Assembly (NCBI GenBank): GCA_000218705.1
Contig: GL947594.1
Span: 709,876 to 773,875 of the forward strand
Reading direction: 5' to 3'
DNA: 64,000 bases
DNA from: Prochlorococcus marinus bv. HNLC1
Lineage (GTDB): Bacteria > Cyanobacteriota > Cyanobacteriia > PCC-6307 > Cyanobiaceae
The position numbers and the translations under genes are program-made. A model generated the notes under the pieces. It did not search any database, had not been told where the DNA came from, and saw only the letters and a list, made by a program, of their open reading frames with translations. Positions within the stretch are counted from its first letter, which is position 1; the number at the start of each line of letters is the position of its first letter. Shown piece after piece: positions 43,912 through 47,124 of the stretch.

Positions 43912-45591
43912 TTATTTTTCTAAATCAGTTACGGCACCCAAGCTTGAAGTGCTTACAATTCTTGCGTATTTAGCAAGTACACCCTTTTTATGTTTGGGAA
44001 GAGGTTTTTTCCAACTTTTTCTTCTAATTTCTAATTCTTGCTCAGTTAAGGAAACCTCTATTATTTGATTTAATGCATCGACAGTAATAATATCGCCCTC
44101 TTTAATTAATGCTATATTCCCTCCGACTGCTGCCTCTGGTGCAATATGGCCAACTACTAAGCCATATGTTCCACCACTAAATCTTCCATCTGTAATTAAA
44201 GCAACCTTTTCTCCTAATCCTTGGCCAACAATGGCTGATGTTGGAGCTAACATTTCTCTCATCCCAGGCCCACCTACTGGTCCTTCATTTCTAATAACAA
44301 CTACATCTCCAGCTTTGATTTCATTTTTGAGTATGGATTCTAAACAGGATTCTTCACTTTCAAAAATTCTTGCAGGGCCAGATAAAACAGGATTTTTAAC
44401 ACCACTTATTTTTGCGACACTTCCTTCTATCGCTAGATTCCCTTTTAGTATTGCCAAATGACCTTTTTTATAGAGAGGATTATCTATAGTCCTAATTACT
44501 TTTTGATTATTAGGGGGATTATCAGGTATATCCTTTAATAATTCTGTAATCGTTTTGCCTTCAATATTTTTACATTCACCATGAATTAATCCTGCATTAA
44601 GAAGGATCTTCATTACTTGAGGAATACCTCCTGCATTGTGAAGATCAACGGTAACATACTTACCACTTGGTTTTAAATCGCAAATTACTGGTACTTTTTG
44701 CCTGATCTTTTCAAAATCATCAATATTTAATTCAACTCCTGCAGTCTTGGCTATTGCGAGCAAATGAAGGACAGCATTTGTTGATCCTCCAACTGCCATA
44801 ATAACTGCGATGGCATTCTCAAATGCTTTTCTTGTCATTAAATCTAGTGGCCTAATATCTTTTTCAATTGCCTTTACTAAAGTTCTAGCACTTTTTTCTG
44901 AACTAAGTTCTTTTTCAAAATCCTCGGCAGCCATCGTAGAGCTGTGGGGGAGACTTAATCCTAAAACTTCTATGACAGCAGACATTGTGTTTGCTGTAAA
45001 CATACCTCCGCAACTTCCTGCTCCTGGAATACAATTTTTCTCAACATCATTTAACCTCTTTTTACTAATTTTTCCTGATGTTAATTGTCCAACAGCCTCA
45101 AAAGCACTCACCACTGTTAAATCTTCCCCATCTAATTTTCCTGGTTTAATAGTGCCTCCATATATGAAAATTGAGGGTATATTCATTCTTGCGATAGCAA
45201 GCATAGCTCCAGGCATATTTTTATCACAACCCCCAATAGCACAAACCCCATCCATACTTTGTGCATTACAAGCAGTCTCAATAGAATCAGCAATTACTTC
45301 TCGAGAAACCAAAGAGTAATGCATACCTTTTGTTCCCATTGAAATCCCATCACTAACCGTTATAGTTCCAAACATTTGAGGCATGGCTCCTGAGGCTCTT
45401 ATCGCATCCTCTGCTCTTTTTGATAATTTATTTAAACCTATATTGCATGGTGTGATTGTGCTATATCCATTTGCTACTCCAATTATTGGCTTAATAAAGT
45501 CTTCATCTCTAAATCCTACGGCTCTTAACATAGATCTATTAGGAGATCTTTGAATGCCTTGAGTAATTGCAGATGATCTTAATTTACTCAT
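43912..45591 (-). CDS. ilvD: Dihydroxy-acid dehydratase
   Basis: A 559-residue iron-sulfur enzyme of valine, isoleucine and leucine synthesis. Cluster cysteines are seen in [12 protein letters not shown] and [14 protein letters not shown], and the C-terminal catalytic part in [28 protein letters not shown] is the usual N-terminus. Two long frames on the opposite strand are shadows. leuB, also in this window, belongs to the same amino-acid group. Confidence 0.96.
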
Positions 45592-45612: not shown

Positions 45613-45903
45613 TTATTGACCTAACTCCTCTAATTGTCTTCTTACATCAGCAATTGCAGAATTTAATTGTTCAACTTTTTCTTCTAGTTTTTCACCTTGA
45701 ACAGTATTAATTTTTTCATTTGAATCAATTGCCTCTGATCCGTCTTGAATTCTTGATGAATACATCATTGCTTTTTGTTTTTTTGTTTCTTTTCTTTTAT
45801 CCGCTTCTGATATTAGCCACCATGCTAAGCCAGCAGCGCCTATGAAGGCACCACTAATTAGAGATAAAAGGTTATTTGAGGAAGAATCTCTGTATTCAGT
45901 CAT
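45613..45903 (-). CDS. Small membrane-anchored coiled-coil protein (96 aa)
   Basis: One hydrophobic segment (LLSLISGAFIGAAGLAWWLI) close to the N-terminus is followed by a charged tail with a heptad-like C-terminus (LEEKVEQLNSAIADVRRQLEEL). This suggests a membrane-anchored oligomer, perhaps in the thylakoid. No known family. It reads towards ilvD, 21 bases upstream. Confidence 0.7.
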   Translation of the reverse strand: MTEYRDSSSNNLLSLISGAFIGAAGLAWWLISEADKRKETKKQKAMMYSSRIQDGSEAIDSNEKINTVQGEKLEEKVEQLNSAIADVRRQLEELGQ

Positions 45904-45929: not shown

Positions 45930-46547
45930 CTAGTTCTTTTCTTGAAACTTAGTGCTCAAACGCAACATTGGATCACCAATACCTGGATTTAAATAACTTG
46001 ACGGATCATTTTCAATATCAATACAAGAAGTATATATTTTTTGTTCAGGAAAATATTTTGCTATTTCATTTAAACCCTCTTTACTACATATACAGCTAAT
46101 CATTAAAATTCTATTAGATCTGACTCCTAATTTATCTAATCCTTTAAGTAAATCTAGAGAATTATTATCTTTTTTAATTTGACTTGTATAAATAATAATT
46201 CCTTCATTATTTTCGATTACTTTTGGCAATTCTCCCAATGAAAGAATTGAGTTAGGGATTACTTCTTTTGCTCCATACCAAAGGGTAAGACCTTCTGGAA
46301 TTTGAGCTATTACTCTTATTGGATAATTTGAATTTATAAAAAAAGAATCTTTGGGTCCGCAAAATGTTTCAATTATTTCCTGTTTATAAGGTAACCAATC
46401 TCTTAAAGCCTCATAAGTTAACCATTTCCCAATCTGTTCATAACCTGTTGAGTAGAGGATATCTGGTGTGTTTTTATCTCTTAAAATTGAAAGCCAATGT
46501 TTTAACAAAGGATGTGGAGGTACTATTACCTTTAATGACATAGCCAT
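45930..46547 (-). CDS. UPRTase-like protein, lacking the PRPP-binding loop
   Basis: A 205-residue homolog of uracil phosphoribosyltransferase. The N-terminus VPPHPLLKHWLSILRD and LTYEALRDWLP, and the C-terminus IYTSCIDIE followed by NPGIGDPMLRL match Upp. However, the PRPP loop (DPMLATGGS in active enzymes) reads YTSQIKKDNNS here, and the LRAGLG region reads PEGLTLWYG. So the catalytic phosphate-binding residues appear lost. It may be an inactive or repurposed family member. Pseudogene decay is less likely because the frame is full length. Start at ATG 46547; ATG 46541 also possible. Confidence 0.75.
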   Translation of the reverse strand: MAMSLKVIVPPHPLLKHWLSILRDKNTPDILYSTGYEQIGKWLTYEALRDWLPYKQEIIETFCGPKDSFFINSNYPIRVIAQIPEGLTLWYGAKEVIPNSILSLGELPKVIENNEGIIIYTSQIKKDNNSLDLLKGLDKLGVRSNRILMISCICSKEGLNEIAKYFPEQKIYTSCIDIENDPSSYLNPGIGDPMLRLSTKFQEKN

Positions 46548-46611: not shown

Positions 46612-47124
46612 ATGATTAAATCAATTCGCTTTTCATTAATCAAAAATACATTAATTTATTTAATGATATTTGGTATATTATTTTTCAATTTTGTTAACAC
46701 AGCTTGGGCTAAAAGACCTCCTGAAATAAGAAATCAACAAGAGCTTGATCTTGAACAAGATATGCATGGTCAAGATTTAAGCGGAAATGAATTTGTTAAG
46801 TTTGATTTAAATGGCTTTAACTTTAGTGAGAGTAATCTTCAAGGTGCGGTTTTTAATAATAGTAAGCTTAATAATGCAACATTAAGTGGTGCAGATTTAA
46901 CTGATGCTCTTGCATATGCTACTGATTTCACAAATGCTGATCTTTCAGATGTTAATTTTACAAATGCACTATTAATGGAGAGTAACTTTGAGGGTGCAAA
47001 GATAGATGGAGCGGATTTTACTGACGCTGTACTTAGTAGGATTCAGCAGAAAGAATTATGTAAAAAAGCAAATGGAACAAATAGTGCTACAGGTGAAAGT
47101 ACAGAATATAGCTTAGGTTGTTAA
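46612..47124 (+). CDS. Secreted pentapeptide-repeat protein (170 aa)
   Basis: The N-terminus has a signal peptide (LIYLMIFGILFFNFVNTAWA, cleavage likely after AWA at about residue 33). The mature part holds about 14 pentapeptide repeats of the form A(D/N)Lxx, e.g. NLQGAVFNNSKLNNA, ADLTDALAYATDFTNADL, forming a right-handed beta-helix. The C-terminus has two cysteines (ELCKKANG, YSLGC). Likely lumenal or periplasmic; thylakoid lumen pentapeptide proteins are known in cyanobacteria. Function unknown. Confidence 0.88.
   Translation: MIKSIRFSLIKNTLIYLMIFGILFFNFVNTAWAKRPPEIRNQQELDLEQDMHGQDLSGNEFVKFDLNGFNFSESNLQGAVFNNSKLNNATLSGADLTDALAYATDFTNADLSDVNFTNALLMESNFEGAKIDGADFTDAVLSRIQQKELCKKANGTNSATGESTEYSLGC

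Follow-up and report, generated by a model that had tools for sequence, protein, structure and literature searches.

Uracil phosphoribosyltransferases (UPRTases; Upp in bacteria) of the cyanobacterial type catalyze the synthesis of uridine monophosphate (UMP) from uracil and phosphoribosyl pyrophosphate (PRPP). The UPP protein of plant plastids is a uracil-salvage enzyme, and it is also of the cyanobacterial type. In Trypanosoma brucei, the second isoform of adenine phosphoribosyltransferase (APRT) is reportedly an inactive member of the phosphoribosyltransferase family, which exists beside an active isoform. Here, we analyzed a UPRTase homolog that lacks the PRPP-binding site (referred to as site-less below). 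It is encoded in a 64,000-nucleotide stretch of the genome of Prochlorococcus marinus bv. HNLC1 (contig GL947594.1), and this whole stretch is called the window. The conclusion that a protein without the PRPP site is retained by selection is well supported by purifying selection on the gene, its retention throughout the genus, and the presence of site-less orthologs in several places of the tree.

The site-less protein resembles the bacterial Upp of Thermotoga maritima (1o5o) and Bacillus caldolyticus (1i5e) in its fold, its N-terminal HPL..H.L block and its PGxG turn. It differs from them by the absence of the PRPP loop, the arginine of the LRAG motif and the flap, and by scores below the NCBIfam upp cut-offs. 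The inactive APRT isoform of T. brucei accompanies an active one, whereas the Prochlorococcus gene stands in the enzyme's own place, as its positional ortholog. The human and Drosophila UPRT are likewise UPRTase homologs retained despite doubted activity: according to PMC4536494, the purified human protein showed no activity in vitro and the Drosophila protein is reported to be active in vivo. These proteins show the reverse loss, with a preserved PRPP site and two glycines missing from the uracil site, whereas in the site-less protein the PGxG turn is retained and the PRPP site is absent. PyrR, a regulator of pyr that doubles as a UPRTase in Bacillus (according to the title of a reference in PMC5608322), offers another likeness, namely a UPRTase turned to another use. 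It belongs to a different subfamily with a retained PRPP loop, and the copy from a relative matches PF00156, whereas the site-less protein matches PF14681 only.

The gene is an intact, ATG-started open reading frame (ORF) at positions 45930-46547 of the window, on the minus strand, and codes for a pseudo-UPRTase of 205 amino acids. A Pfam search with this protein passed the gathering cut-off of PF14681 (UPRTase) with 85.3 bits against the required 27 (E 5.1e-24); no other domain was detected at E 0.01, including PF00156, the PyrR domain. Both equivalog cut-offs for upp in NCBIfam were missed (75.1 of 114 bits for NF001097 and 72 of 208.35 bits for TIGR01091). All 12 matches obtained in a sequence search of the PDB were UPRTases, the best with an E of 1.8e-13. 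The AlphaFold2 model of the protein had a mean predicted local distance difference test score (pLDDT) of 92.7 and a predicted template modelling score (pTM) of 0.88, and its best Foldseek match in the PDB was the UPRTase 6wn8 (E 2.0e-17, TM 0.83). In a structure comparison, the model matched 1o5o with a Z of 25.0 (root-mean-square deviation of 2.4 over 194 residues) and 1i5e with a Z of 24.1. The top 14 entries were all UPRTases (Z 20.9-25.0), and other phosphoribosyltransferases reached at most 11.6. Judging from the model, the site-less protein keeps the UPRTase fold. The preliminary description of this DNA had proposed an intact, full-length frame for a UPRTase homolog, and the ORF, the Pfam score and the predicted fold agree with it. 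The closest named loci are on contigs of uncultured Prochlorococcus AH-287, with 94-97% identity. A phage origin was ruled out, since only 5 of 50,697 phage records matched, all with less than 28% identity; they belong to phages of Acinetobacter and Listeria and to one phage without a name. In the open-licence literature, judged by titles and the beginnings of abstracts, we recognized no paper treating the site-less Prochlorococcus protein.

The elements on the PRPP side were compared by alignment to the intact orthologs. The PRPP loop DPMxATGGS aligns with TSQIKKDNN, within residues 120-130 of the window protein (YTSQIKKDNNS; 46158-46190, minus strand). The LRAGLGLW of the pyrophosphate loop aligns with IPEGLTLW, within residues 82-90 (QIPEGLTLW; 46278-46304, minus strand); here GLxLW is retained, and the arginine (R84, now proline) and the alanine are gone. 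Position 84 is R in 26/26 intact rows and P in 22/22 rows of the marine clade, to which the window protein belongs. The flap is missing as well: 16 canonical residues (104-119), including the conserved R109 and Y119, are gapped in the window protein and all 22 marine rows. In the window protein, the resulting junction lies near residues 103/104 (46236-46241, minus strand). All marine rows have thus lost the loop, the LRAG arginine and the flap, and new letters have become fixed in this clade, namely P84 and I124 in 22/22 and Q123 in 95% of the rows. In the 26 site-less rows from outside the marine clade, R84 is kept in 54%, and the flap is partly kept in about half. The class is therefore not uniform, and the loss common to it is that of the PRPP loop. 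Neither a generic PRPP-loop pattern nor LRAG occurs anywhere in the 205 residues, which rules out a relocated loop, the alternative that the preliminary description had named; among the rows, a stricter generic loop pattern matched none of the 50 site-less and 17 of the 26 intact ones, leaving nine intact rows undetected. The same description was right about the replaced PRPP loop and about the damage to the LRAGLG region, except that the latter sequence is not wholly unrelated, given the retained GLxLW. For the UPRTase of Mycobacterium tuberculosis, PRPP binding is proposed in PMC3570474 for Arg77 and Arg102, and a catalytic role for Arg102 and Asp198. By motif position, judged by eye, these would correspond to the arginines of LRAG and of the flap and to the Asp of the PGLGD turn. 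Only the turn Asp is retained in the window protein, as D192. With these residues missing, the site-less protein is very probably unable to run the UPRTase reaction.

The retained elements were determined in 47 rows of intact and site-less orthologs. The N-terminal block (residues 10-53; 46389-46520, minus strand), with its PP pair and the tryptophans W18, W42 and W51, contains the invariant P10, P11, H12, W18, L19, R23, T27, P28, G40, W42, L43, Y45, E46, R49, W51 and P53. In the remainder of the protein, G92, P98, L137, L159, D177, P188, G189 and G191 are invariant. The last three are part of the PGIGDP turn (residues 188-193; 45969-45986, minus strand), in which the window protein has a complete PGxGD (PGIGD, 188-192); we take PGxG to be the uracil-side turn of UPRTase. 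The N-terminal block and the turn are present in 47/47 rows; the preliminary description had noted that the Upp motifs at both ends of the protein are kept. The three tryptophans were found in 13/13 Upp of the cyanobacterial type outside the host family and in 0/31 rows of the other Upp type, which has K or F, then L, M or I, and a gap at the respective positions, the gap at W51 being possibly an effect of the alignment. The UPRTases 1o5o, 2e55 and 2ehj of the PDB also lack them. The absence of the tryptophans from other bacterial UPRTases means that they are dispensable for UPRTase chemistry there, yet they outlive the PRPP site here. Among the matches listed, at least two PF14681 matches were present in 53 of 131 cyanobacterial genomes outside the host family, and the 30 best-scoring matches retrieved (L222-L251) belonged to the other Upp type and lacked the tryptophan block.

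The gene was found in 88 of the 101 genomes of the genus, and in 29 of the 30 most complete ones (completeness of 90% or more, contamination of 5% or less). The ratio of nonsynonymous to synonymous substitution rates (dN/dS), determined by the pairwise Nei-Gojobori method for 40 disjoint pairs of genus members, was 0.157 (bootstrap 0.138-0.183). This value indicates that the gene is not decaying, and it differs from the value near 1 that the preliminary description had set against its own proposal. Among eight regions, the strongest constraint was observed for residues 166-178 (0.050), 1-55 (0.077) and 79-95, which hold the reshaped pyrophosphate loop (0.081). Residues 96-115 (0.126), 136-165 (0.141) and 179-200 with the PGxG turn (0.183) were in the middle of the range, and the least constrained were residues 56-78 (0.378), followed by 116-135 with the former PRPP loop (0.265, 0.191-0.358). 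Four of the 88 matches were flagged: three have a stop within the frame, and one is truncated where its contig ends. Two of the stops lie within the last codons, and the only real lesion is in G044 (an internal stop and an insertion). Substrate-binding residues have been lost under purifying selection, and in this sense the protein is a pseudo-enzyme; the loss of activity itself is judged from the residues that are missing. The selection for a non-catalytic role suggested in the preliminary description is well supported as to the selection, and its non-catalytic nature is probable on the same grounds. The nucleotide or regulatory partner that the description proposed as a ligand may be bound, given the retained PGxG turn and N-terminal block.

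The site-less gene occupies the locus of the intact enzyme. Next to it in the window, on the same strand, is a gene for a ssl2009-like small protein (45613-45903, minus strand; NF053524 at 33.7 bits, below the cut-off of 58), which lies between the pseudo-UPRTase gene (gap of 26 bp) and ilvD (gap of 21 bp) and is a neighbour, not a part of the protein. The third gene on this strand, ilvD (dihydroxy-acid dehydratase; 43912-45591, minus strand), was named by recognition. A gene for a pentapeptide-repeat protein is divergent (46612-47124, plus strand; PF00805, 63.6 bits). A scan of 78 loci of the host family, with flanks of up to 3 kb, revealed the divergent pentapeptide gene at all 78 and cobW at 77; on the strand of the Upp gene, ilvD was present at 75 and the ssl2009-like gene at 73. 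The pentapeptide gene was beside 49/49 site-less and 22/22 intact loci, and ssl2009 or ilvD was beside 48/49 and 13/22, respectively. We draw nothing from this difference, since the nine intact loci without these genes come from three close genera and the one site-less locus is a borderline row of genus g9. At 13 loci with Upp of the same type outside the host family (flanks of 2 kb), this neighbourhood was not found; two pentapeptide-repeat ORFs and one 19-residue ssl2009 match were seen there. The shared locus makes the site-less gene the positional ortholog of intact Upp. A site-less extra copy beside an intact Upp was ruled out by these common neighbours and by the host genome, in which the site-less gene is the single PF14681 match (79 bits in that search). 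PF14681 was matched in 182 of 201 host-family genomes, with scores from 233 to less than 92 bits among the matches listed, and in 144 of 145 genomes of a class-wide draw, 14 of which belong to the host family.

To follow the state of the site in the family, we used 76 genomes, 26 intact and 50 site-less, which were picked by hand to cover the genera and both states and are not a random sample. From a starting set of 79, three without a TypA match and G102, in which the match was cut, were dropped, and the window genome was added; IlvD was found for at most 61 of the 76. A row was called site-less if the PRPP loop or LRAGL failed our own pattern, so the class is mixed, and the trees come from quick searches that gave a single support value. 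On the TypA and IlvD tree, the state changes at least seven times. On the Upp tree, calculated without the motif columns, it changes at least six times, and a single clade of the 50 site-less rows was rejected (p 1.7e-7). After removal of two long rows and of genus g9, in which the two site-less rows depart from the pattern by a single loop letter, at least four changes remained, and a single clade of 46 was again rejected (p 7.1e-5). The clearest cases are g10 and g44, in which site-less genes are nested among intact ones in both gene and species trees; g18 adjoins intact genera in the gene trees, but a site-less genome in the species tree. Change counts of this kind cannot separate loss from gain. 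The intact state is taken as ancestral because the outgroup rows are intact and PF14681 scores are high in the rest of the class, and the changes were, on this evidence, probably losses.

The second UPRTase, PyrR, scored above its cut-off in 57 of the 58 host-family genomes tested, intact and site-less alike, and in 4/4 outgroup genomes. The PRPP loop was intact in all 12 PyrR copies that were read, 11 of them from the host family. In the genus, PyrR was found in 76 of the 101 genomes and in 24 of the 30 most complete ones, so the site-less Upp is retained more widely there than PyrR. Two copies of PyrR contain stops (G074:C5:55752-56276 with nine and G024:C3:308677-309204 with two), and PyrR was not found in G078, a near relative of the window genome that is 67% complete. 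PyrR may be decaying in parts of Prochlorococcus. The window's own genome is the one exception among the 58 family genomes: it gave no PyrR match, and the PF00156 matches there are Prs, PurF, Apt and PyrE. In G130, a site-less gene is at the locus (L156) and a second UPRTase of another type, with an intact loop, is encoded elsewhere (L155, around G130:C24:155268-155876). An intact second UPRTase is what would be expected if the site-less copy no longer works, and L155 is possibly a regain of uracil salvage by transfer. NCS2 uracil permeases are rare: they were present in 4 of the 62 genomes, of which three are site-less members of the family and one is an outgroup, and in none of the intact family members tested. 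No link to uracil import was seen. Matches to uridine kinase occurred in 17 of 62 genomes, none above the cut-off and with no usable pattern; in the window genome, the uridine-kinase-like ORF G000:C1:618883-619482 scored 65.8 bits against a cut-off of 220. According to PMC11698098, Prochlorococcus exudes purines as well as pyrimidines, and thymidine appears to be the end point.

We propose, with a probability of about one half, that this pseudo-enzyme is kept by selection for a PRPP-independent second job of cyanobacterial-type Upp. The enzyme would perform this job besides UMP synthesis, by means of the N-terminal block and perhaps also the uracil-side turn, and would most likely act as a binding partner or a ligand-sensing scaffold for another protein. 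Catalysis could have lapsed with PyrR nearly always present in the family. The PRPP loop would then have been lost in several lineages, and the LRAG arginine and the flap also in the marine lineage of the window, while the protein kept its fold, N-terminal block and PGxG turn and the gene its locus. The direction of the changes as losses, the loss of activity, the redundancy with PyrR, and the second function with its nature are what we infer. In a wider and rather doubtful form of the proposal, an ancient PRPP-independent function would reside on the tryptophan block and be exposed by repeated death of the catalytic site within one cyanobacterial family, and the role in photosynthesis that is reported for the plastid enzyme is possibly the same function. 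The link of plastid UPP to the site-less Prochlorococcus case should be taken as a lead only.

Several observations weigh against the proposed second job. The constraint is not limited to the N-terminus: residues 166-178 and the reshaped loop 79-95 are equally constrained, which would suit a new pocket too, and the region of the PGxG turn is less constrained. The conserved N-terminal block may merely hold the dimer together. The turn Asp is replaced by N in 64% of the marine rows. The partial retention of R84 and the flap outside the marine clade means that the loss there is often that of the PRPP loop alone. The absence of a PyrR match from the window genome means that redundancy with PyrR does not hold there today; moreover, PyrR also occurs in the four outgroup genomes with intact Upp and in intact family genomes, so that it permits the loss and does not predict it. 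Finally, the median dN/dS of ilvD was 0.036-0.049, compared with 0.124-0.143 for the site-less gene over the same kind of pairs, here overlapping, which is about a threefold difference. The constraint on the site-less gene is real, about one third as strong as in this core enzyme, and it is spread over the N-terminus, the reshaped loop and residues 166-178.

Other explanations were considered in the light of the same data. PyrR and PurR act as regulators that respond to their ligands. Comparably, the site-less protein could be a sensor of uracil, UMP or another pyrimidine, with the retained PGxG turn as the binding site and a partner as the recipient of the signal. The turn in 47/47 rows, the predicted UPRTase fold and the strong constraint on the reshaped loop are consistent with this, but the PRPP side is lost, the turn region is only moderately constrained, and PF14681 stands alone in the Pfam search, with no extra nucleic-acid-binding domain. 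We consider a sensor of this kind unlikely. The constraint on the loop (0.081), together with the letters fixed at positions 84, 123 and 124 of the marine rows, could also point to an enzyme with a new PRPP-independent reaction in a reshaped pocket. The 26 other site-less rows share no letters at these sites, which argues against a shared new active site, and of the eight regions only residues 56-78 are under weaker constraint than the former PRPP loop; such a reaction appears improbable to us. That the protein remains active as a UPRTase by means of an unusual site is hardly credible: the fold and the turn, with D192 in the window protein, are kept, but the loop, the LRAG arginine and the flap, among which are residues discussed in PMC3570474, are missing.

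The history of the gene could be read differently as well. The site-less state might have arisen once, with some lineages regaining an intact gene by transfer; replacement within the locus would be hard to see when the loci share neighbours, and the change counts are blind to the direction of change. Against this history, a single site-less clade was rejected even without the motif columns, also when g9 and the two long rows were left out, and the site-less groups g10 and g44 lie among intact relatives in both kinds of trees. We regard a single origin as improbable too. A gene in slow decay could leave copies such as that of G044, one of 88, with its internal stop and insertion. The dN/dS of 0.157 and the presence in 29/30 of the most complete genomes do not fit such decay, and the other flagged matches are two last-codon stops and one contig-end cut, which makes this explanation very improbable.

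The gene matches the UPRTase family and is kept nearly throughout a very abundant photosynthetic genus. The UPRTase reaction is very probably impossible for its product, so metabolic models that route uracil salvage in Prochlorococcus through this gene would be wrong. Provided that the changes of state are losses, which the outgroup suggests, the family amounts to a natural experiment in which two functions of one protein have come apart, and separation-of-function alleles are already at hand in its site-less and intact orthologs. With this pattern, a common cyanobacterial enzyme can be tested directly for a second role.
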